Notes: generated from the sequence alone by a model not told the origin. Shown: positions 3,301 through 35,621, counted from the first letter of the stretch. The stretch is 35,621 bases of DNA from Campylobacterota bacterium (GCA_013151055.1 JAADIZ010000041.1:1-35621), one strand, 5' to 3'. Program-made: numbers and translations.

Positions 3301-3491
3301 TTTGCAACTGTTCTAGAGAGAGTTTCGCCATCGGCTCCTGGATATATGGCTTGCACCATTATTTGAGGTGGAACAACTGCTGGATACTCCTTGATAGGTA
3401 ATAGTTTTATAGAAATGATACCGGCAATTATAATTACCAATGATACAACCGTAGCAAAGATTGGTCTATTAATGAAAAATTTAGAAAACAT
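369..3491 (-). CDS. RND efflux transporter, inner-membrane HAE1/AcrB-MexB family
   Basis: 1040 aa ORF; MFSKFFINRPIFATVVSLVIIIAG... and DDAIIVIENVER, GLSAKNAILIVEFA motifs typical of AcrB/MexB. Confidence 0.97.
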   Translation of the reverse strand: MFSKFFINRPIFATVVSLVIIIAGIISIKLLPIKEYPAVVPPQIMVQAIYPGADGETLSRTVANTLEESINGVDNMTYMTSTSSPSGVLSLSVFFKIGTNVNQAKVDVNNRVQLAMSKLPIEVQRQGIKVQERSPDMLKVLAFSSKKQKHNTLWISNYLKINIMDDLTRIPGVGEAVIFGEKDYSIRIWIDPQKLSFYHLVSTDIINAIKSQNNQYAAGSIGAEPTKRAQPYTYNVTTKGRFKTVKEFQNVIIRSNPDGSTLRLKDIAKVELGADSYNTNAKYNKEPMIPVGIFLSPGANALNVSKAVDNKLKELSKKFPQDLVYHTPYDTTLFINESIKEVLKTLFEAILFVVVLIYLFLGNLRATIIPVLAIPVSIIGTFAGLYVAGFSINLLTLFGLILAIGLVVDDAIIVIENVERILRTKDGISVKDATIKAMKELTTPIVAIVLVLSAVFIPAALSGGFSGVMYKQFAMTIVIAVIISGIVALTLTPALCAILLKENEPKAIWPIRKFNQLFAWSTKVFLGVARQTIKLWFFSLLLFGGLLYATYTIIKITPSGLVPTEDKGALMVLAYMMPATSLADSSKITAGIEKKLLANPNIVSTGVITGIDLITFAYKTDAAIMFAMLKPWHERLAPNQSSQALARKLMGQFMQNKNAFVIPVNPPAIMGMSTTGGFEMWVQDRTGGDIHLLSKYVKEIVAKANQDPRLMMVRTTLNTNVPQYKLTVDREKAKAFNISIADIFTTLQTTFGKGYVNDFNLYGRTFHVNIQSEAKYRATKNNYKDLFVKSQNGNLVPVSELVHVKRVVDASVVQRFNLFNAAQITGNPTPSFASSDAITAIAEIAKKVLPEGYTIAWAGTSYQEKLLAKKGNYTSVYAALFVFLILAALYESWSIPMAVLFSIPFAIFGAALAVFLRHLEADIYFQVGIITLIGLSAKNAILIVEFAMDKLKEGMSLMDATIEAARLRFRPIVMTSLAFIVGTLPLVLSTGAGSASRHIIGTTVVGGMVSATVIGVLFIPMFFYIVVWVKQKFSTLATKK

Positions 3492-4619
3492 CTATTTTCC
3501 TTGTTTATTGATAATCTTATCTACTATAACTTTGCTACCTGGTTTTAGTCTGAAGAAATTATTTATTATGACTTTGTCACCACTTTTTAGAGGTCCACCT
3601 GCGACGATATAATTGTTTCCACTCTCATTTCCTAAAAATACAGGTCTAACTCCTACTCGACCATGGTTTTCTATGAAAACAATCGTTCCTAACGGATTTT
3701 GAAGTACTGCTTTTTGAGGTATGGTTATCACTCCTTTTTGGACTATGTTTTTTGTGATAACTCTGACAAATTGACCTGGCATAAGAAAGCCGTCGCTATT
3801 ATCAAATACAGCTCTCATTTTTACTATTGATGTTTGATTATTTGTATTGATATCTACAAAATTAACTCCAGCTTCTTTTTTTAATATTTTTCCGTTTACC
3901 TCCAGATTTATCTTTATAGAAGCATCTTTTTCTACACTCCAAAGATGATTTTTGATATTTCTGTAATCACTCATAGGAACAGAAAAATCTATGTAAATTT
4001 TTTTAATTTGAGTTATTTTTACTAAAGGAGTCGGTGGGTTTGGAGAAATCAAATCACCTACATCGACTTGTTTCAGCCCGATAATTCCGCTAATAGGTGC
4101 CTTTACTTTTGTATATGCCAAATTGATATTTGCTTGTTTCAATTGTGCCTTTGCAAGAGCTACACTTGCTAAAGCCTGTTGATAAGCAGATGAGGCATTG
4201 TCTCTTTTTTCTTGGCTTACTGCTTTTTGTGTATATAATCTTTTGACTCTTTTCCAATTCCTTTGAGCATTGTCAAGATTTGCTTTGCTCATTTGCAAAG
4301 ACGCAACCGCAGCTTCATTTTTTGCTAGATAAATATCATCTTCTATTTGATACAGCAAGTCACCCTTGTTGACTTTTTGTCCTTCTTTAAAATATTTTTG
4401 CTTCAAGATACCTAAAGCACGGGCTACGACCTGAACTTTTTTATATGCTTTCACTATGGCTGGGTATTTTAGTGTAATTGGTAAAACTGCAGGTTTTGGA
4501 ACAATATAAATATCAGCTTTTGGGACTAGCATCTGTACACCCACAGGTGCTCCTCCTGCAAAAATAGCTGTCGTTGATAGAAATATAGCAATTATTAGGT
4601 TGTATCTCAATTTTCTCAT
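3492..4619 (-). CDS. RND efflux periplasmic adaptor (membrane fusion protein, AcrA/MexA family)
   Basis: 375 aa; lipoyl/coiled-coil/barrel pattern (VKAPISGIIGLKQVDVGDLISPN), in operon with RND pump. Confidence 0.95.
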   Translation of the reverse strand: MRKLRYNLIIAIFLSTTAIFAGGAPVGVQMLVPKADIYIVPKPAVLPITLKYPAIVKAYKKVQVVARALGILKQKYFKEGQKVNKGDLLYQIEDDIYLAKNEAAVASLQMSKANLDNAQRNWKRVKRLYTQKAVSQEKRDNASSAYQQALASVALAKAQLKQANINLAYTKVKAPISGIIGLKQVDVGDLISPNPPTPLVKITQIKKIYIDFSVPMSDYRNIKNHLWSVEKDASIKINLEVNGKILKKEAGVNFVDINTNNQTSIVKMRAVFDNSDGFLMPGQFVRVITKNIVQKGVITIPQKAVLQNPLGTIVFIENHGRVGVRPVFLGNESGNNYIVAGGPLKSGDKVIINNFFRLKPGSKVIVDKIINKQGK

Positions 4620-5845
4620 TTGATAAAATCCTTGATATTTTTATTTGTATAGTAGTAGTAAGAAGCATAAGCAACTTGTAGATTATTTAATGCTGTTTCG
4701 TATTGTGCTTTTGCGTTTGTCTTTACACTTAAAGCATCAAGATAAGCCACATTATTCACAATACCAGCTTCAAATTTTTTAGCTACAGTTTTGTAGGTGC
4801 TAGTAGCTGAGAGCAAAGAGGTTTTTGCACTTTTTATTTGTGCTTTTACAGTTTGAATTTTTGATGTAGCTAATTCTATGTTGATATTTTGAATATTTTT
4901 ACTTTGCTCTATTTGCTTTGCTAATGCTCTTTTTTGCAATAAAATAGACTCTTTTTGTTTAGTAATTACATCATTGTCAAATACTCTTATGCTAAAATTG
5001 AGCATTAGTTTGTTTTGATGGTCCATACCCTCAGGGTGGTATGTATCACTTCTTCTGTAGCCATACAAACTATATGTATCTTCTAGTCTTATTTGAGGTT
5101 TATATGCTGAATTTAAACCGTTTGCAATAAATTGAAGTGATTTTGCTTGTTGTTTTAGTATCAGCGTATCATCGCTTAGACTTTTTTGTATGTTGATTGA
5201 CTCTTTTAAACTAGATGTTTTAAGATTTTTTACATTTTTCCCAACTTTTATAGATAAACCTCTTTTTAATGCGTGTATTTGATATTTTAAATTGTCTTCT
5301 TGATAAACTACATTACTAAGAGCTGCTTGAAGTTTTTCTACATCATCATTTGTAACACTGCCTACCTCATATAATTTTTTTACCCTTGCAACTTCTGCTT
5401 GCAGCTGAGTTTTTTTATCTTCGAGTGCTTTTAAGCTCTCTTTTGCACTAAGCACGGCAAAAAAATCTTGAGTTATATCTAATTGCAAACTCTTTTTATA
5501 TGCACTAGTGGCATATTTTGATGAGTTTAAAAGTGCTCTATTTTGTTCAATTATACTTTTTTTTCTTCCTCCATCATACAGATCAACTCCAATTTTTGCA
5601 TACCCACTATATATATCTCCTGATTGCATCGGAGTTCTATCGTTGTCTAGTCGTTGATAAAAACTACCTAAATCAATTGTTGGATAAAAAGAGTTTTGTG
5701 AAGACTCTAACTCCTTTTGTTTTGCTTGTTCGGTTATGGTTTTTGAAGCTACTATGTCGTTGTTTGTGTTTGCATACTCTAGTAGTGATTTTAAATCTTC
5801 TCCATATAAAATCACACAAATCAATAATAATAATATCTTTTTCAT
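4616..5845 (-). CDS. TolC-family outer membrane efflux protein
   Basis: 409 aa; signal peptide and long coiled coil, TolC-type repeat organisation; ATGA-type overlap with the adaptor gene. Confidence 0.93.
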   Translation of the reverse strand: MKKILLLLICVILYGEDLKSLLEYANTNNDIVASKTITEQAKQKELESSQNSFYPTIDLGSFYQRLDNDRTPMQSGDIYSGYAKIGVDLYDGGRKKSIIEQNRALLNSSKYATSAYKKSLQLDITQDFFAVLSAKESLKALEDKKTQLQAEVARVKKLYEVGSVTNDDVEKLQAALSNVVYQEDNLKYQIHALKRGLSIKVGKNVKNLKTSSLKESINIQKSLSDDTLILKQQAKSLQFIANGLNSAYKPQIRLEDTYSLYGYRRSDTYHPEGMDHQNKLMLNFSIRVFDNDVITKQKESILLQKRALAKQIEQSKNIQNINIELATSKIQTVKAQIKSAKTSLLSATSTYKTVAKKFEAGIVNNVAYLDALSVKTNAKAQYETALNNLQVAYASYYYYTNKNIKDFIK

Positions 5846-6276
5846 TTATTTAATCCCTCGTAATATTTTTTTATTTTTTCTAATACTTTTAGTGTAGTCT
5901 CGTAATCATCTGCACCTATGATAACTTTTAACTCTTCTTCTTGTTTTTCAAATATAGGTGAGAGTTTTTTTGCATTTTCTTTTGTCTCTTCAGTAAGAAA
6001 GATTTTGGATACCCTTCTGTCTTCAAGCGAAGTTTTACGGACAATCTTTCTTTTTTTAACCAAAGCATCAATCATTCTAGTAATCGTTGTTTTATCTTTA
6101 TGTAAATATTGCGAAAGTTCAGTTTGTGTGAGTCCTGGCATCTCATATACATACTTTAAAAGAAATCCCTGTTCATTACTTATACCATAGGGTTTTAAGT
6201 ACTTATTGTGTTCATTTTCTATAAAGTTTTTAGTTAATTTTAACTGAGGTATGATTTTATTTGCAATACTAGACAA
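5842..6276 (-). CDS. MarR-family transcriptional regulator
   Basis: 144 aa; GLTQTELSQYLHKDKTTITRMIDALVKKRKIVRKTSLEDRRVSKIFLTEE winged-HTH signature; first gene of the efflux operon. Confidence 0.95.
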   Translation of the reverse strand: MSSIANKIIPQLKLTKNFIENEHNKYLKPYGISNEQGFLLKYVYEMPGLTQTELSQYLHKDKTTITRMIDALVKKRKIVRKTSLEDRRVSKIFLTEETKENAKKLSPIFEKQEEELKVIIGADDYETTLKVLEKIKKYYEGLNK

Positions 6277-12692: not shown

Positions 12693-21403
<8,711 letters not shown>

Positions 21404-21433
21404 AAGCTATTTTTAAATAAAATAGCAAGCTTA
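21404..21433 (+). other. Second hairpin downstream of rpoC
   Basis: AAGCTATTTT-taaat-AAAATAGC(a)AGCTT-type stem (GCTATTTT/AAAATAGC 8-bp perfect). Confidence 0.6.
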
Positions 21434-21488
21434 ATTATTTTGTTTATGTAAAAAATAGAATAATATGTAAAAATTTAAAGGAAAGAAT

Positions 21489-21860
21489 GTGCCAACAATC
21501 AACCAATTGGTAAGAAAAGAGAGAAAAAAGGTGATTAAAAAGTCAAAATCACCTGCATTAGTCGGATGTCCTCAAAGAAGAGGGGTTTGTACAAGAGTTT
21601 ATACTACAACTCCAAAGAAACCAAACTCAGCTTTGAGAAAAGTTGCCAAAGTTAGACTAACTAGTGGCTTTGAAGTAATTAGCTATATCGGTGGTGAGGG
21701 TCATAATCTTCAAGAGCACTCTATAGTTTTAGTAAGAGGTGGAAGAGTAAAAGATTTACCTGGTGTTAAGTACCATGTAGTTCGTGGAGCCTTAGATACT
21801 GCTGGTGTTGCAAACAGAACTGTTGCAAGAAGTAAATACGGTACCAAAAAGCCTAAATAG
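21489..21860 (+). CDS. rpsL: 30S ribosomal protein S12 (GTG start)
   Basis: 123 aa; [31 protein letters not shown]. Confidence 0.99.
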
Positions 21861-21863
21861 TTT

Positions 21864-21934
21864 CTCGACGCAAGTCGTAGCTTTAGTGCAATGAATTTAT
21901 CTTGAGCTTTGCTTAAGTTAAAGAAAACAGTTAG
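21864..21934 (+). repeat. Structured intergenic repeat, copy E (rpsL-rpsG)
   Basis: CTCGACGCAAGTCGTAGCTTTAGTGCAATGAATTTATCTTGAGCTTTGCTTAAGTTAAAGAAAACAGTTAG; hairpin 1 covaries (CGAC-GCAA-GTCG). Confidence 0.85.
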
Positions 21935-22009
21935 GCGATAATAATCTAAATTAAATTTAACAAACAGGTGTCACCCATTGAATGTTGGTTGCATTTGAGT
22001 AAAATTTAA

Positions 22010-22498
<489 letters not shown>

Positions 22499-22510
22499 AA
22501 AGGAACTATT

Positions 22511-24589
22511 ATGGCAAGAAATCATCCTATAGATATGGTTAGAAATATCGGTATTGCTGCACACATTGATGCAGGTAAAACCACTACAACAGAGAGAATA
22601 CTTTATTATACAGGTATTTCACATAAGATCGGTGAAGTTCATGATGGTGCAGCTACTATGGACTGGATGGAGCAAGAAAAAGAGAGAGGTATCACAATCA
22701 CAAGTGCTGCCACAACTTGCGAATGGAATAATCATCAAATAAATATCATAGACACTCCAGGTCATGTGGATTTTACAATTGAAGTTGAGCGAAGCATGAG
22801 AGTTCTTGATGGTGCCGTTGCTGTTTTTTGTGCAGTTGGTGGAGTTCAACCACAAAGTGAAACTGTTTGGAGACAAGCAAATAGATATAAAGTTCCAAGA
22901 ATGGTTTTTGTAAATAAAATGGATAGAGTTGGAGCTGATTTTTATGAAGTTGAAAAACAAATAAAAGATAGATTAAAATCAAATCCAGTACCTATTCAAA
23001 TACCAATTGGTGCAGAAGAAGATTTTAAAGGCGTTGTTGATTTAGTTAGAATGAAAGCACTTGTTTGGGAAGATGAAGCCGCTATGGGTTCACACTACGA
23101 AGAAGTTGATATTCCTGCAAATTTACAAGAAAAAGCTGAAGCTTATAGAGAGCACATGATTGAATCTATATCTGAGACAAGTGATGAATTGCTTGAAAAG
23201 TACTTAAGTGCAGAAGCACTTAGCGAAGAAGAGATAAAGGCTGGATTAAAAGCTGGTTGTCTTGCTATGACACTAGTTCCAATGCTTTGCGGAACTGCTT
23301 TTAAAAACAAAGGTGTTCAGCCCTTGCTTGACGCAGTTGTCGATTATATGCCTGCACCTACAGAAGTTGCAGCTATAAAAGGTCAATATGAAGACGGAAG
23401 TGAAACAATCGTAGAATCAAGTGATGAGGGTGAATTTGCTGCACTTGCTTTTAAAATTATGACTGATCCATTTGTCGGGCAATTAACATTTATTAGAGTT
23501 TATCGCGGAGTTCTTGAGAGTGGAAGTTACACCTACAATACTACAAAAGATAAAAAAGAGCGTGTTGGAAGATTGCTAAAAATGCACTCAAATAAAAGAG
23601 AAGAGATAAAAAAACTACACGCTGGTGAGATTGGAGCTGTCGTTGGACTAAAAGATACTCTAACAGGAGATACACTAGCTGGTGATAAAGATAGAGTAAT
23701 TCTTGAAAAGATGGATTTTCCAGATCCAGTTATTAGCGTTGCGGTTGAACCAAAAACTAAGGCTGACCAAGAAAAAATGGGAATAGCATTACAAAAATTA
23801 GCTCAAGAAGATCCAAGTTTTAGAGTTGAAACCGATGAAGAGAGTGGTCAAACCATTATTTCAGGCATGGGCGAACTGCACCTTGAAATTTTGGTTGACA
23901 GAATGCTTAGAGAATTTAAAGTTGATGCTGAAGTTGGACAACCTCAAGTTGCATACAGAGAAACAATCAAAAAAGAGGTTACACAAGAACATAAATATGC
24001 TAAGCAATCAGGTGGACGAGGACAGTATGGTCATGTATATATCAAACTTACTCCTTTAAAACCAGGCGAGGGTTATGAATTTGTAAATGATATCAAAGGT
24101 GGTTCAATTCCTAGAGAATTTATTCCAGCGGTTGATAAAGGTCTTAAAGAAGCTATGCAAGGCGGTGTTCTTGCTGGTTATCCTGTTGAAGATGTAAAAG
24201 TGACACTTTATGATGGAAGCTATCACGATGTCGATTCAAGTGAGATGGCGTTTAAACTAGCAGCATCCATGGCATTTAAAGAAGGTGCTAGAAAAGCTGA
24301 TGCGATTATACTTGAACCTATGATGAAAGTTGAAGTTGAAACACCTGAGGATTTTATGGGTGATGTGATTGGAGATTTAAATAGAAGAAGAGGACAGATA
24401 AGCTCCATGAGTGATAGAAGTGGAAATAAAATAGTCGATGCTTTTTGCCCACTCTCAGAGATGTTTGGATATTCCACAGATTTAAGAAGTCAAACACAAG
24501 GAAGAGCTTCATATTCAATGGAATTTGATCACTATGAAGAAGTTCCAAAAAATGTAGCTGAAGAGATTATCAAAAAAAGAAACGCATAA
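22511..24589 (+). CDS. fusA: Translation elongation factor G
   Basis: 692 aa; [49 protein letters not shown]. Confidence 0.99.
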
Positions 24590-24600
24590 AACAAATACCA

Positions 24601-24644
24601 AAAGCCGAGTATATCCCACTTAGGGCAGTGCTCGGCTTTTTTTA
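24601..24644 (+). terminator. Intrinsic terminator after fusA
   Basis: AAAGCCGAG...CTCGGCTTTTTTT. Confidence 0.9.
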
Positions 24645-24652
24645 TTTTCACT

Positions 24653-24729
24653 GTCCCGGTAGCTCAGCAGGATAGAGCACTTGATTCCTAATCAAGAGGC
24701 CACAAGTTCGAATCTTGTTCGGGACACCA
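24653..24729 (+). tRNA. tRNA-Arg (anticodon CCT)
   Basis: GTCCCGG...TCGGGAC acceptor stem; cttgattcctaatcaag anticodon arm; encoded CCA. Confidence 0.95.
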
Positions 24730-24808: not shown

Positions 24809-25894
24809 ATGGGACTTTTTTCGAATTGCAATTTAGAGCAAAAAAAGATAGTTGAGCTAGAGGTAAAAAATAGGGAGCTTTTAGAGGAGATAGAAAGTCT
24901 AAAGTTACAAATTGCCAATCAAGATAGCGACAAAGTTCAAGATACTAAAAATTTTGAACAAGAGATAAAAGATGAAATCATACAAATGTTGCTGAAATCT
25001 TACAGAAGTGGTGTAGGTTTTGTTAAAGAGATATTGATGACTTCAGTTAGTGCACTAGATGAAGCTAGTGGTATGAATGAAAAGACAAGTAAAAGAATTT
25101 TAGCTGTACAATCTAAAGGTCAAAATATAACAAAATCTATAGAGCAGATAAGCCAAGAAGCAACAAATCTAGATGACGGAGCCAACTCACTAAATGATAG
25201 CGTAACATCTATAGGCGATATCATAAGTCTTATCAAAGATATATCAGACCAGACAAATTTACTAGCTCTAAATGCAGCTATAGAAGCAGCAAGAGCAGGT
25301 GAGCATGGCAGGGGTTTTGCAGTTGTTGCAGATGAAGTTAGAAAACTAGCTGAGCGAACCCAAAAAGCAACTCAAGAAGTAGAGATTAGCATAGGTCAGT
25401 TAAAACAAAATACATCAGAGATACAAGATATTTCGGAACTTTTTAGGGTAAATACAGACAAAATATCTCAAACACTATCTGATTTTTTTGAAGAACTCGA
25501 ATTTGTCATAAAAAATTCTCACAGAATCAAAGATGTGACTGAAAATATAACCAATGAAGTTGGCGTAGGAAATGGAAAAATTGACCATATATTACTTAAA
25601 CTTTTAGCATATGATTCATTTATAAATAGCTCTACTCCAACGATAATAGATGAAAATTCATGTGTTTTTGGAAATTGGTTTAAAGACAATAAAGAAAAAA
25701 TCAAAGATGAAACAAAGGTTTTAGCTAGTGTAAATGAACACCATATAAATGTTCACCAAGGCATAAAAGAGGCTATTAAAACTTGGAATAGCGGTGAATT
25801 TGATAAAACTATAGAATTGATGAAAAGTGTAGAAAACTCAAGTGAAGTTGCTTTTGAAGAGCTATATGGTGCTTTTGTAAGTCATCGTAAATAA
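24809..25894 (+). CDS. Soluble methyl-accepting chemotaxis protein with C-terminal CZB (zinc-binding chemoreceptor) domain
   Basis: 361 aa, no TM segment; signalling hairpin [40 protein letters not shown]-terminal KIDH...CVFGNWF...HHINVH pattern. Confidence 0.88.
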
Positions 25895-25928: not shown

Positions 25929-26222
25929 GTGATATCAAATGGTTTATATAGTGTCAAATTTAAAAATGATAAAGAAGTTATAGTAAAATTAAGCGATAAA
26001 AATAATCCCATATTTAAAGCCCATTTTCCACAAAGACCGATAATGCCTGGTTTCATTCATTTTGAGATTATTTCTGATTTGTTTGGATTAAATATAACAA
26101 CTATAAAGCGTGCTAAATTTTTAAAATTAATTGAACCAAATCAAGTCCTAACATATAAAAGAGATGGCAGAAAATTTCAAGTTTTTTGCAAGGAAGAAAT
26201 TGTAGCAAGCTTTATATTATGA
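25929..26222 (+). CDS. Hotdog-fold 3-hydroxyacyl-ACP dehydratase-like protein (FabZ/FabA-like)
   Basis: 97 aa; FKAHFPQRPIMPGFIHFEI matches the FabZ HFPGRPVMPG catalytic segment. Confidence 0.75.
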   Translation: MISNGLYSVKFKNDKEVIVKLSDKNNPIFKAHFPQRPIMPGFIHFEIISDLFGLNITTIKRAKFLKLIEPNQVLTYKRDGRKFQVFCKEEIVASFIL

Positions 26223-26905
26223 ATATTTGTGTAGTCATTCCCACATATAATTCACCTTATATAGTAGAAGTGATTAAAGATGTAAAAGAGTATGGATACA
26301 CTATAATTGTGGTTGATGACGGTTCAGATGTAAAAGTTGATATTGATGCTTTTGATATCCATTTGATTGTTCATAAAACAAACATGGGCAAGGGTGAAGC
26401 GATACTAAGCGGAGCTAAAAAAGCAAAAGAGTTGGGGTTTGATAGTTTTGTTACAATGGATGCGGATAAGCAACATATTGCATCACAAATTGATAAATTA
26501 GCAAAATCTTACGAGCCAAATAGTATCATCATAGGGTATCGTAATTTTGAAAATGAAAATGTACCAAAAAGCTCGATTTTTGGGCGAAAGATTAGCAATT
26601 TTTGGGTCAATCTTGAAACATTTAAAAATCTAAAAGATACTCAAAGTGGTTTTAGAATTTACCCTATATCCATACTTGATTTAGGTACAAAAAAAAGAAG
26701 ATTTGATTTTGAGATAGAGGTATTGGTTCTTCACTGTTTTGGTGGTGGAGAGATTAAAGAGGTAGATATAGAATGTTACTATCCACCAATTGAAAAAAGA
26801 ATTTCTCATTTTAATAAAATTAAAGATAATCTCCGCCTAAGTGCAATACATACAAGATTGGTGATACAAAGATTTTTTCTACTCAGGGGCTTTTTATGGA
26901 ATTAA
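26219..26905 (+). CDS. Family 2 glycosyltransferase
   Basis: ICVVIPTYNSPYIVEVI...IIVVDDGSD...NMGKGEAILSGAKKA...VTMDADKQH; start ATG at 26219 overlaps the upstream stop by 4 nt (ATGA). Confidence 0.88.
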   Translation: MNICVVIPTYNSPYIVEVIKDVKEYGYTIIVVDDGSDVKVDIDAFDIHLIVHKTNMGKGEAILSGAKKAKELGFDSFVTMDADKQHIASQIDKLAKSYEPNSIIIGYRNFENENVPKSSIFGRKISNFWVNLETFKNLKDTQSGFRIYPISILDLGTKKRRFDFEIEVLVLHCFGGGEIKEVDIECYYPPIEKRISHFNKIKDNLRLSAIHTRLVIQRFFLLRGFLWN

Positions 26906-26967
26906 TAAAAGCTTAATTGCACTTACTGTAGAATATAAGCTTATGCAAATAACACTATAAAGTAATT

Positions 26968-27885
26968 ATGTACATGAAAAAAATTTTAGTTTTATATTAC
27001 TCTCAATCAGGTCAGCTAAAAAGTGTTGTAGATAGTTTTATCTCAAAACTTGGTGATAAGGACATAAAGGTTGATGTAAGGGGGATTGAGCCCGTTGTAG
27101 CTTATCCATATCCTTGGTCATTTTATGAATTTTTTGATGAATTTCCTGACGCCGCTCACATGAAGGGTTGTGAAGTTCATGAGATTAAAAACTTACAAGA
27201 TGACTATGATTTGATAGTGCTAGGATACACCATATGGTTTTTAGCTCCATCTTCACCGATTGTTGGATTTATGAAATCAAACCAAGCAAAGAAACTTTTT
27301 GAAAATAAGCCAGTTATTACTTTGATAGCATGTCGCGACATGTGGGTTATGGCTCAAGAAAAGGTGAAGAAATTGCTTAGTGATGTTGGAGCCAAACTTA
27401 TAGACAATGTTGCACTTACGGATCAAGGCAAGGGAATATATTCGTTTGCTACAACTCCAAGATGGCTTTTAAGTGGTAAAAAAGATGCTTTTTGGATTTT
27501 TCCTCCAGCTGGTATTTTGCAAAGCGACATAGATGATGCTTCAAGATTTGGACATAGATTAAACGAGGCATTAAAAAGTGATAAAGAAAAAAGAGATGAG
27601 CCTTTGTTGAAAAATTTAGGTGCTGTAAGTGTAAATGGTAAATTGATAGCTTCCGAGATTATAGCTACTAGGAGTTTTTATATTTGGGGAAAAATTATCA
27701 ATTTTTGCGGGAAGAAAAAATCATTTAGTAGAAAAATTGCTATAACAGTCTATACAATTTTTTTAGCATTGATGGTTTTTACACTAGTGCCTATCAATAT
27801 CTTAGTGCGAAAAATTTTAAACTATTTTCAAAAAGATAGATTAAAAGAGTTAGAAAAAAAATATGAGGAACCAAGTGGCAGATGA
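26968..27885 (+). CDS. DarA-like dialkylresorcinol condensing enzyme homologue (flavodoxin-like N-terminus, C-terminal TM helix)
   Basis: 305 aa; KKILVLYYSQSGQLKSVVDSF, YPYPWSFYEFFDEFPDAAH, VITLIACRDMWVMAQE, TTPRWLLSGKKDAFWIFPPAGI recalled as characteristic of proteins annotated as dialkylresorcinol condensing enzyme; adjacent to KASIII. Confidence 0.75.
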   Translation: MYMKKILVLYYSQSGQLKSVVDSFISKLGDKDIKVDVRGIEPVVAYPYPWSFYEFFDEFPDAAHMKGCEVHEIKNLQDDYDLIVLGYTIWFLAPSSPIVGFMKSNQAKKLFENKPVITLIACRDMWVMAQEKVKKLLSDVGAKLIDNVALTDQGKGIYSFATTPRWLLSGKKDAFWIFPPAGILQSDIDDASRFGHRLNEALKSDKEKRDEPLLKNLGAVSVNGKLIASEIIATRSFYIWGKIINFCGKKKSFSRKIAITVYTIFLALMVFTLVPINILVRKILNYFQKDRLKELEKKYEEPSGR

Positions 27886-29027
27886 GTGAAGTTTATATAA
27901 ACAACATAGCGGCATTTTTTCCAAATAAAGCTGTTGATAATGACCATATGGAAAATATATTGGGTGTGGTTGATGGCAAACCGTCCTTAGTTAAAAGAGT
28001 AGTTCTTAGGTCAAATAAGATAAAAACAAGATACTATGCGATAGATCCAAAAACAGGAAAAACAACGCATTCAAATGCAAAAATGGCGGCCGAAGCTATC
28101 GAGACTTTGGAAAGAGATGGGTTTGATAATGCAAAGGCAGAGCTTTTGGTATGCGGTACAACTGTTCCAGACCAACTTTTGCCAAGTCATGCCTTGATGG
28201 TACTAGGAGAGAGTAATCTAAAATCTATGGAAGCTGTAAGTATCGCAGGTATTTGTTTAAGTGGTTTAAGTGCTCTTAAATATGCCTATGCTTCTATAAA
28301 AGCTGGAATTATAGACAGAGCCATTACGACAGGGAGTGAAAATATTTCAGCATCCATGCGTGGCAGAAACTTTGAGCCCGAAGTGCAAAGCAGAGTTGAA
28401 ATGGTTAAAAAAAATAAAGAGTTAACTTTTGAAAAAGATTTTCTAAGATGGATGTTAAGTGATGGTGCGGGAGCTATTGGAGTGAGTAAAGAGCCTAATA
28501 AAGATAGACTATCTTTAAGAATAGATAGGATTTTTTCAAAATCATATGCAAATGAGCAAGAAGCTTGCATGTACAGTGGTTGTGAAAAACTAAAAGACGG
28601 AACACTTATGGGATATAGAGAATATTTGCCTGCTGAATGGCTCAAAAAATCCATATTTGCTGTAAAACAAGATGTAAAACTTTTGAATGAAAATATAGTA
28701 AAATATACGGTTATAAAACCTCTTAAAGAGATGCTTCTTAAGAAGATGTTTGAGCCCCAAGAGATAGATTGGTTTTTGCCTCACTACTCATCTGATTATT
28801 TTAAAGATAAGCTTTATGAAGGCATGAAGGAGGTAAATTGTGATATACCTATGCAAAAATGGTTCACAAATTTAGCAACAAAAGGTAATACAGGTTCAGC
28901 TTCAATATATATAATTCTTGAAGAGTTATTTAACTCTGGCAAGATAAAAAAAGGTGAAAAACTTTTATGCTATATACCAGAAAGCGGCAGGTTTTCAACA
29001 GCTTTTATGTTGCTTGAGGCAGTATAA
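27882..29027 (+). CDS. 3-oxoacyl-ACP synthase III-like ketosynthase (DarB-like)
   Basis: 381 aa; catalytic Cys in SIAGICLSGLSALKYA, His in DWFLPHYSSDYF, Asn in ATKGNTGSASIYIILEEL; 4-nt overlap with upstream gene. Confidence 0.88.
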   Translation: MSEVYINNIAAFFPNKAVDNDHMENILGVVDGKPSLVKRVVLRSNKIKTRYYAIDPKTGKTTHSNAKMAAEAIETLERDGFDNAKAELLVCGTTVPDQLLPSHALMVLGESNLKSMEAVSIAGICLSGLSALKYAYASIKAGIIDRAITTGSENISASMRGRNFEPEVQSRVEMVKKNKELTFEKDFLRWMLSDGAGAIGVSKEPNKDRLSLRIDRIFSKSYANEQEACMYSGCEKLKDGTLMGYREYLPAEWLKKSIFAVKQDVKLLNENIVKYTVIKPLKEMLLKKMFEPQEIDWFLPHYSSDYFKDKLYEGMKEVNCDIPMQKWFTNLATKGNTGSASIYIILEELFNSGKIKKGEKLLCYIPESGRFSTAFMLLEAV

Positions 29028-29444
29028 ATGGAGATCAAAAATGTTCCACAAGATGATAGTTCAACTTATGGAGAAATGAAAAAAGCCATCTATGCTAAAA
29101 ATTCAAATGGCAAAATAAAAAGTATAGGCTCAACTGGTTGGGATGTTGAAGAAGTAGTGACTCAACAAGTCATAGATGATTTAAAACAGAGTGAAAAAGA
29201 AGCTTATGAAGAAGCGGTATCTGGAAAAAAATCTCCACTTTATTATCATATGTATGCACTTAGAATGGATTTGGCAGTTTTAGCTCAATCTACAGGCTTT
29301 TTTCAATGGAGTATTAAAAGGGATTTTAAACCTGAAGTTTTTAGTAAGATAAGTGAGAAAAGATTGCAAATTTACTGTGAAGTTATGGGTAAAACTATGC
29401 AAGAAATAACAGAGCTACCAAAGGTAAGTTATGAAGGAATTTAA
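29028..29444 (+). CDS. Small protein of unknown function encoded between KASIII and BtrH-like genes
   Basis: 138 aa ORF immediately following the KASIII stop; MDLAVLAQSTGFFQWSIKRDFKPEVFSKISEKRLQIYCEVMGKTMQEITELP resembles an HTH-like helical segment. Confidence 0.8.
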   Translation: MEIKNVPQDDSSTYGEMKKAIYAKNSNGKIKSIGSTGWDVEEVVTQQVIDDLKQSEKEAYEEAVSGKKSPLYYHMYALRMDLAVLAQSTGFFQWSIKRDFKPEVFSKISEKRLQIYCEVMGKTMQEITELPKVSYEGI

Positions 29445-30420
29445 ACACACACACCATGCACATTGCGAAAGCGGTGTTATGTCTTCCATGCTTAGGCATC
29501 ACGGGCTAAATATAAGTGAACCCATGATATTTGGACTCTCAAACGCTCTTAATTTTGCTTATATTCCTTTTGTTAAAATTGGTGGAATGCCGCTTGTTTC
29601 ATATAGAAGTATTCCAAAGTCAATTATAAAAAATATCCAAAAAAACCTAAAAATCAAAATGAAATTAGAGACATTCTCTTCGCAAAAAAAAGGCGAAGAT
29701 AGGCTAAATGAACTTTTAGAAGAGGGAAAAGTTGTAGGTGCTCAAAGTTCTGTGTATTGGTTAGAGTATTTTCCACCTGAAATTAGATTTCATTTCAATG
29801 CACACAATTTACTCGTATATGGCAAAGAGGGAGATGATTATCTTATCAGCGACCCAGTATTTGACAAGAGTGTTAAATGCTCCGCTAAGTCGCTTTTAAA
29901 AGCCAGATTTGCCAAGGGCATGATGGCTCCAAAAGGATTGCTGTATTATCCTTTGGAAGTTCCTACACAGATAGATTTAAAACCAATTATCAAAAAAAAT
30001 ATCAAAAAAATATCCAAATACATGCTCAAAACTCCAGTTCCAATCGCAGGACTTAGAGGCATAAGATATCTGGCAAAATCGATACTAAAATTAAAAACAA
30101 AACCAAAAAAATATGCAAAACTTTTTTTGGGAAATATTGTGCGAATGCAAGAAGAAATAGGTACAGGCGGGGCTGGATTTAGATTTATGTATGCTGCATT
30201 TTTGCAAGAGGCGAGTGAACTTTTTGGAGATGATAAAACTCTTAAAGATGCCTCTAAATTGATGTTAGAAGTTGGAGATAAATGGAGAGATTTTGCTTTA
30301 GTAATTGCAAAAGCCATCAAATCTAAAAATGAGATAGAGTATAAAGAGATATCTGATATGTTACTAGATATCGGCAAAAATGAAGCTATAGTATATAGGA
30401 AGCTTTTGGAATTTACATGA
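29431..30420 (+). CDS. BtrH-like (BtrH_N / DUF4872-type) cysteine acyltransferase/peptidase-fold protein
   Basis: 329 aa; HHAHCESGVMSSMLRHHGLNISEPMIFGLSNAL N-terminal Cys motif and RFHFNAHNLLVYGKEGDDYLISDP His/Asp motif. Confidence 0.8.
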   Translation: MKEFKHTHHAHCESGVMSSMLRHHGLNISEPMIFGLSNALNFAYIPFVKIGGMPLVSYRSIPKSIIKNIQKNLKIKMKLETFSSQKKGEDRLNELLEEGKVVGAQSSVYWLEYFPPEIRFHFNAHNLLVYGKEGDDYLISDPVFDKSVKCSAKSLLKARFAKGMMAPKGLLYYPLEVPTQIDLKPIIKKNIKKISKYMLKTPVPIAGLRGIRYLAKSILKLKTKPKKYAKLFLGNIVRMQEEIGTGGAGFRFMYAAFLQEASELFGDDKTLKDASKLMLEVGDKWRDFALVIAKAIKSKNEIEYKEISDMLLDIGKNEAIVYRKLLEFT

Positions 30421-31139
30421 TAAAAATCTCGCATGTAACCAAAAAATATGGCAACTTCAAAGCATTAAATGATCTCTCATTTGAAGTAAAAAAAGGCACA
30501 ATTTTTGGGCTTTTAGGAGTTAATGGAGCTGGAAAAAGTACGATTTTATCTATACTTAATGGACTTTGTAAAATAGATGCAGGAGAGATACAAATTGCTG
30601 GATTTGATATCAAAAAAGATATCCAAAAGATAAAAGAGATAAGCTCCATAGTTCCTCAAAACCTCGCTTTTTATGACAAATTAACAGTAAAAGAAAATCT
30701 TGATTTTTTCAGTAAAATTCAAAATGCTAAAAAAGAAAATTATGATAAAGCTATAGAGGTAAATGGCTTGGAAAGTGTTTTAGACCAAAGAGCCCTAACA
30801 CTTTCAGGCGGACAAAAAAGAAGGCTAAATATCGCCATAGGATTGCTAAATAACCCACAAATTATCTACTTTGATGAACCAACAGTTGGGATAGACCCAA
30901 AAAGCAGAAATGAGATACTCTCTTCTATAAAAAACTACAAAAATTTTGGTATCACAGTCGTTTACACTAGCCACTACATGAATGAAGTAGAAAAAATTTG
31001 TGATGAGGTAGCTATTATTTCACACGGAAAACTTATCAAACAAGATAGCTTAAAAAATTTACTTTCAAAAGACAATCCCAAAGACCAAACAGCACTAGAA
31101 AAACATTTTTTAGAATTGACTGAGGAATCTTATGTTTAA
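30417..31139 (+). CDS. ABC transporter ATP-binding protein
   Basis: 240 aa; Walker A GVNGAGKST, signature LSGGQKRR, Walker B IIYFDEPTVGIDP; ATGA overlap with the BtrH-like gene. Confidence 0.97.
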   Translation: MIKISHVTKKYGNFKALNDLSFEVKKGTIFGLLGVNGAGKSTILSILNGLCKIDAGEIQIAGFDIKKDIQKIKEISSIVPQNLAFYDKLTVKENLDFFSKIQNAKKENYDKAIEVNGLESVLDQRALTLSGGQKRRLNIAIGLLNNPQIIYFDEPTVGIDPKSRNEILSSIKNYKNFGITVVYTSHYMNEVEKICDEVAIISHGKLIKQDSLKNLLSKDNPKDQTALEKHFLELTEESYV

Positions 31140-32265
31140 AGCCATGATAAAAAAAGAGTTTCTTTTGGTTTTAAGAGACAAACAAGCCTTGATGGTGCTT
31201 TTTATTATGCCCGCAATTTTTATTTTGATTATGTCAGTTGCCATGAGAGATATATTTTCACAAAAGAGTGTAAGATTTGACATATCAATCAGAGATTTGG
31301 ATAAGAGTAGCATAAGCAAGGAACTTATCAAAACTCTTAGAGTTGATAAAAGTTTTGATATAGTAAAAGCAGAAGATGCAAAACTATCAATTACTATACC
31401 AAAGGGATATGGCAAAGAAGATGTAGCAAATAAAAAAAAGTTGAATATCAATATAAAGAGTTCACTAAAAAGTGATGAAATCGAACTTTTTAAAGCAAAA
31501 TTGTCAAAAGATGTGATTAGTTTAAAACTAAAAATAATAAAAGTAAAGATGAGTGAGTTTTCAGATGTTGCTGCAAGTGCGATAGGAAGTATTACGCTTG
31601 AACCCAAAAAACTTTTTAGTATCAAATACAACAAAAGTAAAAATATACCAAATGCCACACAACAAAGTGTGCCAACTTGGATAGTATTTAGTATGTTTTT
31701 TGTTATAATTCCAATGTCAACGATATATATAAATGAGAAAAAACAAAATACTCTAGCAAGACTGAGTTCCATGAATATTTCAGTCATCACTATAGCTCTT
31801 TCAAAGATTGTCCCTTATCTATTTATTGCGCAAATTCAGATGGTTTTGATGGTTTTGGTTGGTATGTATATAGTTCCTCTTTTTAATACCCCAGCTCTTG
31901 TGATAAATGGCTCAATTTTAGCCCTAATTTTCCTTTCTTTTGCACTTAGCCTCTGTGCCATTGGGTTAGCAAGTCTTATAGCAGCAAGTTCAAATTCAAG
32001 TGAACAAGCAACAACGATAGGCGGTATATCAAATATACTACTAGGAGCAATAGGCGGAGTGATGGTGCCAAAGTTTATAATGCCACCAATCATGCAAAAA
32101 TTAGCAGATATCTCACCCATGTCATGGGGATTAGATGGTTTTTTAGATATATTTTTAAAAGGAGGAGGCATTGCCACGGTGTTAAATAACTCCATAATGC
32201 TGATACTCTTTGGTGCAGTTACATTAAGTTTGTCGATGTTAATCCTAAAGAAAAAACTACTCTAG
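31132..32265 (+). CDS. ABC-2 type transporter permease
   Basis: 377 aa; N-terminal TM, large extracytoplasmic domain, then five or six TMs (ABC-2 architecture, MIKKEFLLVLRDKQALMVLFIMPAIFI). Confidence 0.93.
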   Translation: MFKAMIKKEFLLVLRDKQALMVLFIMPAIFILIMSVAMRDIFSQKSVRFDISIRDLDKSSISKELIKTLRVDKSFDIVKAEDAKLSITIPKGYGKEDVANKKKLNINIKSSLKSDEIELFKAKLSKDVISLKLKIIKVKMSEFSDVAASAIGSITLEPKKLFSIKYNKSKNIPNATQQSVPTWIVFSMFFVIIPMSTIYINEKKQNTLARLSSMNISVITIALSKIVPYLFIAQIQMVLMVLVGMYIVPLFNTPALVINGSILALIFLSFALSLCAIGLASLIAASSNSSEQATTIGGISNILLGAIGGVMVPKFIMPPIMQKLADISPMSWGLDGFLDIFLKGGGIATVLNNSIMLILFGAVTLSLSMLILKKKLL

Positions 32266-32290
32266 CTAAGTAACCGCCCCCCCCCAACGG

Positions 32291-33888
32291 CATTAAGTTA
32301 AGGAATTGAGTAAAAATAACTCATTAGAAGAAAATGGTAAAAAACTCAAGAAAAAAATTAAAAAAGAACTCTTATTTATATGTCTACAAAAAGCTTCTAA
32401 ATCCCTGTATTTAGGGTTTTAGAAAGGTTTTTAAAAGTACTTTTTAGCTATAATATATATTATATTAAGGGTTGGCTATGTTAAAAAAAACTACTGAAAT
32501 TTCGGTAGTTTTTAAACATGAAAAAAGAAAAAAAGATTTCCAAATAAAACATAAAATTGGTAAAAACAGTTTTACAAGAGATAGAAAGTTAGGATTCGAT
32601 AAAATTATGACTATGATGATTAAAAAGAGTAATAAATCAATTCAAAATAGTATCAATGACACTCAACTAGATTTAGGTGAGGATGTTACTATCTCTAATA
32701 GTGCTTATACACAAGCCAGAGCAAAGTTAAACTATACAGCATTTGAAGAGTTCGCTCAGATGGCTCGCGATATCTTTTACAAAGATGGTGAGTATGAAAC
32801 ATATCATGGATTTAGAATACTTGCTATTGATGGTTCTGTCGTAACACTACCAAATACAGATGATGTAAAAAAAGAATTTAACCCTATGAAAGTTAAATGC
32901 CAAATTAAAGAGTTTGCTAAAGATGTATCTCAAGCACGAGTATCTTGTCTTTTTGATGTGCTTAATAATATTGCCATAGATTCTTCAATAAGTAATAAAA
33001 ACAAGAGTGGAGAGAATGACCTTATAGCTTATGATGAGAGGACTTTGGCAGTAGAGCATTTGCAACACTGCAAAGAAGATGATTTAACTCTTATGGATAG
33101 AGGCTATCCTTCATTTGAGTTATTTGCAGCAGCTTATAATAAAACAAATATTCTTTGTCGACTTAGAAAAAATCTCTTTTCAAAAGCGAAGTTTCTGTTT
33201 GATGCACATAGTGAGAAAAAAGATGTTGTACTTGAGATAAATGCACCGAAATATTTAAAAGATACACTTAGAAGTGAAAACATACCAACTAAAATTAAGA
33301 TACGCTTTGTACAGGTTATTTTGGATAATGGTACGGTGGAAGTCTTGGCTACTAATGTAGTAGACAATAACAGATTAAGAACTTCAGAATTTAAAAAACT
33401 ATATGCTCTAAGATGGGGAATAGAGACATATTTTGATCTTATTAAAAATAGGTTAGGATTAGAAAATTTTACAGGTTTGACAGCCCTAGCAGTAAAACAA
33501 GACTTCTTTGCAACAATATTTTTAACAAATTATGAGTCAATGATGACTTACGATATTAATCAGGATTTAAAAGAGAAAACTAAAAATAATAAATATGTGC
33601 AAAAAGTTAATAAAGCTATATCCTTTAATGTAATAAAGCATAAGGTATTTGATTTACTCTACTTAGATAACCCCATAGATGAGATGTTAGAGCAGATGGA
33701 AAAGTTATTTTTAACCAATACAATTGTTATACGACCAAATAGAAAATCAAAACCACGCCTTGATAAAGATATACATAAATCTACTATAGCCACAAATTCC
33801 ATAAATCATCTTAAAAGGAAGAAAAAAAATGTTGGAAACTAATCAGATGAAAGTTCGTGTTTTAGGTGCTTGTAGGCTTAACTTAATG
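32291..33888 (+). mobile_element. IS4-family insertion sequence (boundaries by internal part of IRs)
   Basis: 12-bp inverted repeats CATTAAGTTAAG (32291-32302) and CTTAACTTAATG (33877-33888) flanking a DDE transposase; C-tracts immediately outside both ends. Confidence 0.85.
32478..33842 (+). CDS. IS4-family DDE transposase
   Basis: About 454 aa; ILAIDGSVVTLPN (D), LTLMDRGYPSFELF (D), LYALRWGIETYFDLIKNRLGLENFTG (E, YREK-like region). Confidence 0.92.
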   Translation: MLKKTTEISVVFKHEKRKKDFQIKHKIGKNSFTRDRKLGFDKIMTMMIKKSNKSIQNSINDTQLDLGEDVTISNSAYTQARAKLNYTAFEEFAQMARDIFYKDGEYETYHGFRILAIDGSVVTLPNTDDVKKEFNPMKVKCQIKEFAKDVSQARVSCLFDVLNNIAIDSSISNKNKSGENDLIAYDERTLAVEHLQHCKEDDLTLMDRGYPSFELFAAAYNKTNILCRLRKNLFSKAKFLFDAHSEKKDVVLEINAPKYLKDTLRSENIPTKIKIRFVQVILDNGTVEVLATNVVDNNRLRTSEFKKLYALRWGIETYFDLIKNRLGLENFTGLTALAVKQDFFATIFLTNYESMMTYDINQDLKEKTKNNKYVQKVNKAISFNVIKHKVFDLLYLDNPIDEMLEQMEKLFLTNTIVIRPNRKSKPRLDKDIHKSTIATNSINHLKRKKKNVGN

Positions 33889-33964
33889 GGGGTGACCCCC
33901 CCCTTCAATATACATTTTAAAGAATGCTTTAGATTTATGATATAATTTTAGGAGAAATTAGGTA

Positions 33965-34078
33965 TTGACACAGAATTTATTACAGTCCCTAGATTTACAA
34001 ACACCTGTTTATGAAGATTCTCCCTTACTTCTTATAAATGCAGGTATGTACTTACCAATAGGAGTAGAACAAGTATGA
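33965..34078 (+). CDS. Short unknown ORF between IS4 and IS3 elements, possible truncated gene
   Basis: TTG start preceded by AGGAGAAATT SD-like sequence and TATAAT-like box: TQNLLQSLDLQTPVYEDSPLLLINAGMYLPIGVEQV*, ending 3 nt before the IS3 end. Confidence 0.3.
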   Translation: MTQNLLQSLDLQTPVYEDSPLLLINAGMYLPIGVEQV

Positions 34079-34080
34079 TC

Positions 34081-34695
34081 TGTCAACACTTTATAGGACA
34101 CAGAATAAGAATTGTTTAAGCACCCTTTACATTTTGTAACAATTGATTTTCAAAGTCAACAGGTGACAAATAATTGTTACTAGAGTGCAACCTCTGACGA
34201 TTGTAAAATACTTCTATATATTCGAATATAGCTTGATTTGCTTGGCTCCTTGTTTCAAATTTAATATGATGTGTAAGTTCTGTTTTTAATGAGTGAAAAA
34301 AGCTTTCAGCTACAGCATTATCATAACAGTTGCCTCTACGGCTCATGCTTTGGATTATTCCATATGATTTTAACAACTCACGATGAGAATCAGCTGCATA
34401 CTGACTTCCTCTATCTGTATGCCACATTAGCCCACTTTTTGGATTTCTAGTTTTTAAAGCCATAAATAGTGCATCATTAACTAAAGTAGTTGTAATATTA
34501 GCATCCATTGACCAACCAACAATTTTACGTGAGTATAGATCAATAACAGTAGCTAGATATAGCCATCCTTCTCTTGTTGGTATGTAAGTAATATCTCCAA
34601 CATAAATTTCATTTGGACTAGTTGCATAGAAATCTTGTTGTACTCTATTTAGTGCGATTGTATAGTTGTGATTTGAATTGGTTGTTAAAATGCCT
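34081..34695 (-). mobile_element. Truncated IS3-family element (3' part only)
   Basis: Putative terminal TGTCAACACTTTATAGGACACAG at 34081; OrfB fragment reads leftward and is cut at its 5' side by the IS21-type end. Confidence 0.75.
34116..34690 (-). pseudogene. IS3-family OrfB transposase, 5'-truncated (rve integrase core)
   Basis: Frame continues upstream of the listed ORF: TTNSNHNYTIALNRVQQDFYATSPNEIYVGDITYIPTREGWLYLATVIDLYSRKIVGWSMDANITT...HTDRGSQYA...NCYDNAVAESFFHSLKTE, no N-terminus. Confidence 0.85.
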
Positions 34696-34797
34696 ATGAC
34701 GCTCTAACTGGCCACCCATCGCGGTGACATTCGGCCACCTTCTAAGAGGATATTTTCTATAACAGCATTTTATCATAAAGTGGCTGGATGTTGAATC

Positions 34798-35550
34798 TCA
34801 ATATTCTAAATTCTTTGATAATGCATTCACTTTTCTCATTGATTCACCCTCAATAGTTACTCTATGAGAAGAGTGAACTATCCTATCTAAAATAGCATCA
34901 GCCACAGTATTATTATTGAGATAGTTATACCACTGGCTTACAGGAAGTTGAGAAGTGATAATTGTAGAGTTTATATTTGTTCTATCCTCAATTATCTCAA
35001 AGAGATTTGTGGCATCATCATCAACCATTGGAGATACTCCAAAGTCATCAAGGATGAGCAGTTGAAACCGTGAGTATTTTTTCAATAAATTTACATAAGT
35101 TCCATCTATCCTTGAGAGTCGTATCTCTTCAAGAAGTGAAGGTGTTCTTGTATAGTAAACTCTATAGGAATTATGAATAGCATGATTGGCTAGTGCTTGT
35201 GCAAGATAGCTTTTGCCCGTACCTGTTTTCCCAGTAATGATAATATTTTGTTTAGCATTGATAAAGTTTAATTGTGTCAGTGATTGAATCTGTGCTCTAT
35301 CAAGATTTCTATCTGTTTTATAATCAAGTGCATCAAGTGCTGCTTGTTTATCTTTAATCTTTGAGAGTCTATGGTTCATGATAATGCGTTTATTTTTTAA
35401 AAATATCTCCTGTGCATCGAGAAGAGAATAGAGTCTCTCCTCAAAGCTCATCTTAGAGTATGCGATATCTTCTGATTGCATCTTGTAGGACTCTAAAAGA
35501 CCTTTGTAGCCTAATGTGGCAATTTTCTCTTCTAGTTGTGAATGTGTCAT
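34798..35550 (-). CDS. istB: IS21-family ATP-binding helper protein IstB
   Basis: 250 aa; IIITGKTGTGKSYLAQALANHAI Walker A, LLILDDFGVSPMVDDDATNLFEIIEDR. Confidence 0.95.
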   Translation of the reverse strand: MTHSQLEEKIATLGYKGLLESYKMQSEDIAYSKMSFEERLYSLLDAQEIFLKNKRIIMNHRLSKIKDKQAALDALDYKTDRNLDRAQIQSLTQLNFINAKQNIIITGKTGTGKSYLAQALANHAIHNSYRVYYTRTPSLLEEIRLSRIDGTYVNLLKKYSRFQLLILDDFGVSPMVDDDATNLFEIIEDRTNINSTIITSQLPVSQWYNYLNNNTVADAILDRIVHSSHRVTIEGESMRKVNALSKNLEY

Positions 35551-35577
35551 ATTAATTCTTCCTTTTTGGTATTTTGA

Positions 35578-35621
35578 TTATTGGTACTCAGTAGCACCAC
35601 GAATATTTTCATGGGTATTAA
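35578..35621 (-). CDS. istA: IS21-family transposase IstA, C-terminal end (partial)
   Basis: Minus-strand NTHENIRGATEYQ* resembles the IstA C-terminus (HENIRG...), immediately upstream of istB. Confidence 0.65.
   Translation of the reverse strand, partial: NTHENIRGATEYQ

Follow-up and report, generated by a model that had tools for sequence, protein, structure and literature searches.

What does the operon at positions 25,929 to 32,265 of contig JAADIZ010000041.1, from a Campylobacterota bacterium (GCA_013151055.1), produce? The window analysed here is the whole of this 35,621-nucleotide contig (C13), one of 209 in its genome; this assembly and most of those of its relatives are drafts. An original prediction had read the operon as a compact cluster of unknown product class that makes and exports an acylated, possibly resorcinol-type, compound. 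The resorcinol chemistry, the acyl conjugation and the export remain part of our reading, whereas the compact variant of an unknown class does not, because genes for a polyene are present in the same genome. The operon is very probably the half of an aryl-polyene/dialkylresorcinol (flexirubin-type) pathway that forms the dialkylresorcinol (DAR), joins it to the polyene and exports the product, split from the polyene half at insertion sequence (IS) elements. Judged by the genes, the product is most likely an ester between an aryl-polyene carboxylic acid and a 2,5-dialkylresorcinol. What appeared to be a cluster of unknown product becomes a recognisable pathway for a pigment of the yellow-orange kind, such as flexirubin.

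The resorcinol part of this reading begins with DarA and DarB, whose homologues are known to produce DAR (PMC3992019, PMC3949708), including in E. coli (PMC3992019). DarB scored 566 bits against NF005293 (StlD/DarB; cut-off 450), and its best match in the PDB was the StlD structure 5gk0 (5.7e-124); at 495 bits against the 550 required by the narrower NF053539 model, it lies outside that subfamily. The ketosynthase III with an intact Cys-His-Asn triad that had been predicted here is indeed present, with Cys125, His301 and Asn336 invariant in 16 aligned homologues. For DarA, a hidden Markov model (HMM) search gave no Pfam domain above cut-off. It is 37-82% identical to the gene adjoining DarB in 42 other loci, and its AlphaFold model (pLDDT 93.8) has a flavodoxin fold in the N-terminal half followed by long helices, the top Foldseek match being the FMN flavoprotein 3edo (E = 1.5e-7). 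GPCR-like matches to the C-terminal helices were disregarded as generic helix matches (root-mean-square deviation of about 20 A). The original prediction had raised the possibility that DarA is an unrelated flavodoxin oxidoreductase, which does not apply, since authentic DarA proteins have a flavodoxin fold; because the neighbours of DarB elsewhere are homologous to DarA of the window, the fold is no argument against DAR synthesis. Nor is an aromatase lacking, as had been thought: DarA itself is the assigned DAR-aromatase in Azoarcus (PMC3949708). By homology and active site, DarA and DarB are authentic DAR enzymes.

For the polyene half, we searched the genome's own contigs with the proteins of a cluster from a relative of the same genus, G008. 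This relative carries on one contig, in order, genes for a hotdog protein, a family 2 glycosyltransferase (GT2), DarA, DarB, DarG, DarH, an ATP-binding cassette (ABC) transporter ATPase and permease, an acyl carrier protein (ACP), a ketosynthase (KS), a 262-residue protein, a second KS, a KS-like partner (KSn), a tyrosine ammonia-lyase (TAL), a ketoreductase (KR), a 180-residue protein, an acyltransferase (AT), a 158-residue protein, an exporter, an AMP-ligase, a second ACP and a 118-residue protein. Orthologues of every downstream gene, 58-84% identical, are present, and both halves of the pathway are found in one genome. Contig C154 carries the first ACP, KSa, the 262-residue protein and KSb; C95 carries the rest of KSb, KSn, TAL, KR, the 180-residue protein, AT and the 158-residue protein; and C121 carries the exporter, the AMP-ligase, the second ACP (ACPb) and the 118-residue protein. 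C95 and C154 share an identical overlap of 89 bases. The polyene elongation set (ACP, KS pair, KR and dehydratase) is complete when these contigs are taken together with the hotdog protein of the window, and the aromatic starter pair of ammonia-lyase and AMP-ligase is present, 83% and 79% identical to the respective G008 orthologues. Active-site motifs are intact: TACTSS in both KSs, the serine in the ACPs, ASG in the lyase, HQSILD (HxxxxD) in the AT and YSAAK (YxxxK) in the KR. The AT on C95 is a membrane acyltransferase, and the exporter on C121 is of the resistance-nodulation-division (RND)/MMPL type, a call made from its position and an RND-like motif, GVSVTSVSIDY, with no Pfam match. The G008 lyase scored 326 against the FlxA cut-off of 700, which places it in the lyase superfamily and not among FlxA equivalogs; it is presumably specific for tyrosine.

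The earlier statement that the cluster has no FabF-type KS, acyltransferase or exporter is therefore true of the window only, these genes being on C154, C95 and C121. They seemed to be missing because the window is an entire contig, which closes with IS elements shortly behind the permease gene. An IS4-family element, with approximate terminal repeats CATTAAGTTAAG near 32,290 and 33,880, begins about 23 bp past the permease stop, and IS3 and IS21-type fragments, the latter typed by appearance, then reach the contig end. This IS traffic, at 32,288-35,621, probably explains why the cluster is split and why the contig breaks here. The DAR and KS genes could have been separated by an insertion or by a rearrangement at the IS elements, either of which fits these data alike. 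A comparison of contig ends found no overlap between C13 and C154.

In a sample of 200 genomes of relatives, DarB is present in 23. TAL and AMP-ligase both occur in 22 of these 23 genomes versus 9 of the 177 without DarB (Fisher test, 4e-21, the genomes being related and not independent), and where contigs are long, roughly 12-16 kb separate the lyase gene from darB. Lyase and AMP-ligase occur without DarB in G002, G012, G013, G022, G027-G030 and G043, which probably carry plain aryl-polyene clusters with no resorcinol half. The proteins of the DAR half in the window are 57-86% identical to those of same-genus relatives, including GT2 homologues (71-75%) in the same position. The hotdog gene is kept upstream of GT2-darA in relatives of the same genus or family, the ABC ATPase gene is kept beside darH, and in relatives the permease gene is followed directly by ACP-KS.

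The best 80 DarB loci in a collection of named species are mainly from Campylobacterota, Thermodesulfobacteriota and Pseudomonadota. In 37 of the 45 DarB loci with full flanks, DarA, DarG, DarH, the ATPase, the permease, ACP and KSa are kept together; the gene-neighbourhood comparison proposed with the original prediction thus shows the DarA/DarB/BtrH-like/ABC set to be co-conserved. DarG, DarH and the ABC genes are not beside darAB in Photorhabdus (L113, L132) and Pseudomonas NFIX28 (L100), whose DarBs share one clade with Brenneria in the DarB tree. The known chemistry of this Photorhabdus/Pseudomonas clade is free stilbene or resorcinol, Photorhabdus being known for free isopropylstilbene. 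Campylobacterota fall into two groups in the tree, with that of the window nearest Thermodesulfobacteriota and Vibrionaceae, and some transfer appears likely.

Among characterised systems, the arcuflavin DAR locus of Azoarcus sp. BH72 (azo0283-0293; PMC3949708) has the same gene order: darA, darB, darD (hypothetical, in the DarG position), darE (BtrH-like) and darF (ABC ATPase), and further on darI (permease), darC (ACP) and darJ (KS), just as the genes of G008 run on to ACP-KS. Azoarcus links its DAR to a polyene resembling xanthomonadin, through what its fragmentation indicates to be an ester, and depends on two unlinked polyene loci, both of them essential (PMC3949708); in the genome of the window the DAR and polyene loci are likewise unlinked. 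Azoarcus starts its polyene from 3-hydroxybenzoate made by a XanB2-type ArcB, where the genome studied here has an aromatic ammonia-lyase, and the Azoarcus locus contains a PilT/Phd pair. Flexirubins, which are aryl-polyene acids esterified to DAR, start their chain through TAL and a 4-coumarate ligase (PMC3992019). With the flexirubin cluster of Chitinophaga pinensis and Flavobacterium johnsoniae (PMC3992019), our gene set shares DarA/DarB, a TAL-type starter enzyme, a 4-coumarate AMP-ligase, several KSs, a FlxB-like KR, an AT, a glycosyltransferase and an exporter; it differs in phylum and gene order, and no methyltransferase is in the gene set listed. NCBIfam flexirubin models match DarG, TAL and KR, with matches under the flexirubin equivalog cut-offs. 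Glycosyltransferases are a conserved component of arcuflavin and flexirubin polyene clusters (PMC3949708, PMC3992019). The stilbene/resorcinol loci of Photorhabdus and Pseudomonas have homologous DarA and DarB (StlC/StlD), but lack DarG, DarH, ABC and ACP-KS neighbours, and their product is a free small aromatic. In the open-access literature we found no report of an aryl polyene, flexirubin or DAR for Campylobacterota, where an earlier survey may nevertheless list an epsilonproteobacterium; the Frischella paper does not mention DAR. Complete flexirubin-type gene sets in Campylobacterota (of the Sulfurospirillum, Sulfurimonas and Arcobacter types) further weaken flexirubin as a marker of Bacteroidota.

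In the pathway that we propose, the ammonia-lyase on C95 would produce 4-coumarate, which the AMP-ligase on C121 would activate and load onto an ACP. KSa/KSb and the KS-like partner, the KR and one or more hotdog dehydratases would build the aryl-polyene acyl-ACP. DarB would condense two acyl intermediates of the fatty acid pathway into a cyclohexanedione, and the flavodoxin-fold DarA would oxidise this to a 2,5-dialkylresorcinol. The polyene acyl group would then leave the ACP by way of Cys12 of DarH and end up as an ester on one of the phenolic hydroxyls of the resorcinol. If this strain makes the pigment, its route to the outer membrane may run through the ABC pair, the RND-like exporter and a small protein in the LolA position.

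Which of the enzymes links polyene and resorcinol is a separate question, and here co-occurrence provides an argument. DarH consists of BtrH_N (PF14399, 4.6e-48) and DUF4872 domains, and its Cys12, His125 and Asp141 are at least 95% conserved among 63 sequences. BtrH is an ACP:aminoglycoside acyltransferase of papain-like fold, kin to C39 peptidases (PMC10318531). We infer DarH to be the leading candidate for forming the ester of the polyene-DAR pigment, because BtrH is an ACP-dependent acyltransferase, the three residues are kept, and DarH tracks polyene-DAR loci and not free-DAR loci. DarH shares with the BtrH of butirosin its N-terminal domain and the proposed role in ACP-dependent acyl transfer; it belongs to a separate NCBIfam family, and its acceptor would be a phenol and not an aminoglycoside amine. 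Tentatively, and at slightly less than even odds, we propose jointly that DarH is a papain-like cysteine acyltransferase that moves the aryl-polyene from an ACP to a resorcinol hydroxyl, and that Campylobacterota, many of them from sulfidic habitats, make tyrosine-primed pigments, as in Bacteroidota, for protection against oxidants and not light. It is also quite possible, if on balance doubtful, that DarH plays an accessory part, as a thioesterase or a protease, and that a FlxW-like ligase or the membrane AT makes the ester. The peptidase kinship of the BtrH_N fold speaks for this, as does the name BtrH-like peptidase given to the Azoarcus counterpart by its authors (PMC3949708). Against it, BtrH itself is an ACP-dependent acyltransferase, and DarH goes with polyene-DAR loci and is missing from free-DAR and stilbene loci. 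The membrane AT, for its part, also occurs in aryl-polyene clusters without DAR, which argues against it as the ester-forming enzyme. DarG was considered as a possible DNA-binding protein: its model is helical, with residues 37-134 weakly resembling XRE helix-turn-helix folds (all Foldseek matches at E > 0.01), and its Pfam and PDB profile matches are marginal.

Several observations weigh against a functional flexirubin-type pathway as we have drawn it. The product is predicted from genes alone, the hotdog protein is short at 97 residues, and the exporter open reading frame (ORF) is cut at its 5' end by the edge of C121. The authors of the Chitinophaga flexirubin study proposed the ligase-like FlxW for ester formation (PMC3992019). 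On C154, the approximately 176 bp preceding the ACP include the end of another ORF, which is not the permease, so the DAR and KS operons do not abut and the pathway is physically split. The last residues of that ORF (L049:1-90), ...SSFNFGYSIDKRSSGFTNQSVFAKYSMKF, resemble the terminus of an outer-membrane beta-barrel protein.

Such a split might be a sign of pathway decay in this lineage, with the DAR half as a relic. IS4, IS3 and IS21-type pieces lie directly after the permease, which has no adjoining ACP-KS; the exporter is apart from the AT operon; and DarB is missing from some genomes of the same genus and has one in-frame stop in another, G006. We consider decay unlikely: all genes found are open, with catalytic residues kept and the DAR-half identities to same-genus relatives given above, and a split pathway could still function because unlinked loci work together in Azoarcus (PMC3949708). 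The locus in G006 (L024:8203-10272), where the darA ORF is also shortened, may reflect decay or an assembly error. The original view of a stand-alone cluster, in which a dialkylresorcinol lipid, either free or simply acylated, is made and exported without a polyene, draws on the absence of polyene genes downstream on C13, where IS elements close the operon, and on the ability of DarAB by themselves to yield DAR or a cyclohexanedione in other bacteria. It is very improbable, given that TAL and AMP-ligase accompany DarB in nearly all relatives that have it and that DarG, DarH and the ABC pair are absent from loci with darAB alone; with every polyene gene present in the same genome, we rejected it.

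The features of the operon and of the contig end are listed below. As predicted, seven or eight genes run in one direction; ORF calls on the window give eight, all intact, which mostly overlap or abut. The many 4-nucleotide overlaps that had been described hold at three of the seven junctions, namely hotdog/GT2 (26,219-26,222), DarA/DarB (27,882-27,885) and DarH/ATPase (30,417-30,420), but not at the other four, where DarG/DarH overlap by 14 nucleotides, ATPase/permease overlap by 8, DarB and DarG abut, and 62 nucleotides separate GT2 from DarA. The FabZ-like, GT2, DarA-like, ketosynthase III, BtrH-like and ABC-2 assignments agree with the HMM families, or with homology in the case of DarA. 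The hotdog protein keeps His32 within HFPxxPxxPG and the Glu after it, and has a weak ApeI-like profile match (0.13). For GT2, an alternative TTG start at 26,186 was judged less likely than the ATG.

Features of the operon and contig end (window positions)
Feature	Position	Strand	Basis and remarks
Hotdog protein, 97 aa, candidate FabZ/ApeI-like dehydratase	25929..26222	+	GTG start; FabA-like 9e-6
GT2 glycosyltransferase, 228 aa	26219..26905	+	ATG start; PF00535 5e-16
DarA, flavodoxin-fold DAR aromatase/cyclase partner with C-terminal helices	26968..27885	+	Identity to darA beside darB; AlphaFold; Foldseek
DarB/StlD-type ketosynthase III	27882..29027	+	NF005293 566 bits; Cys125-His301-Asn336
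DarG family protein	29028..29444	+	NF053536 162 bits, cut-off 70; darD of Azoarcus by position
DarH, BtrH-like acyltransferase, candidate polyene-DAR ester synthase	29431..30420	+	NF053550 490 bits, cut-off 300; darE of Azoarcus by position
ABC transporter ATPase	30417..31139	+	PF00005 2e-31; darF of Azoarcus by position
ABC-2 permease	31132..32265	+	PF12698 4e-29; darI of Azoarcus by position
IS4-family element, closing the operon in this genome	32288..33888	+	Transposase NF033592 1.5e-43; inverted repeat
IS3 transposase fragment	34116..34508	-	
IstB-like ATPase	34798..35550	-	Contig end; IS21 type by appearance

Directly upstream of the operon, at 24,809-25,894, is a gene for a soluble protein of the methyl-accepting chemotaxis type, with a CZB zinc-binding domain weakly recognisable at its C terminus. 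The pigment operon lies just downstream of a run of core genes at 12,714-24,729, comprising ORFs of 1,382 and 1,509 residues (probably rpoB and rpoC, judging by size and order), a fusA-like ORF and tRNA-Arg. On the minus strand at 369-6,276, ORFs of 1,040, 375 and 409 residues and a short ORF resemble, by size, an RND efflux system with its regulator.

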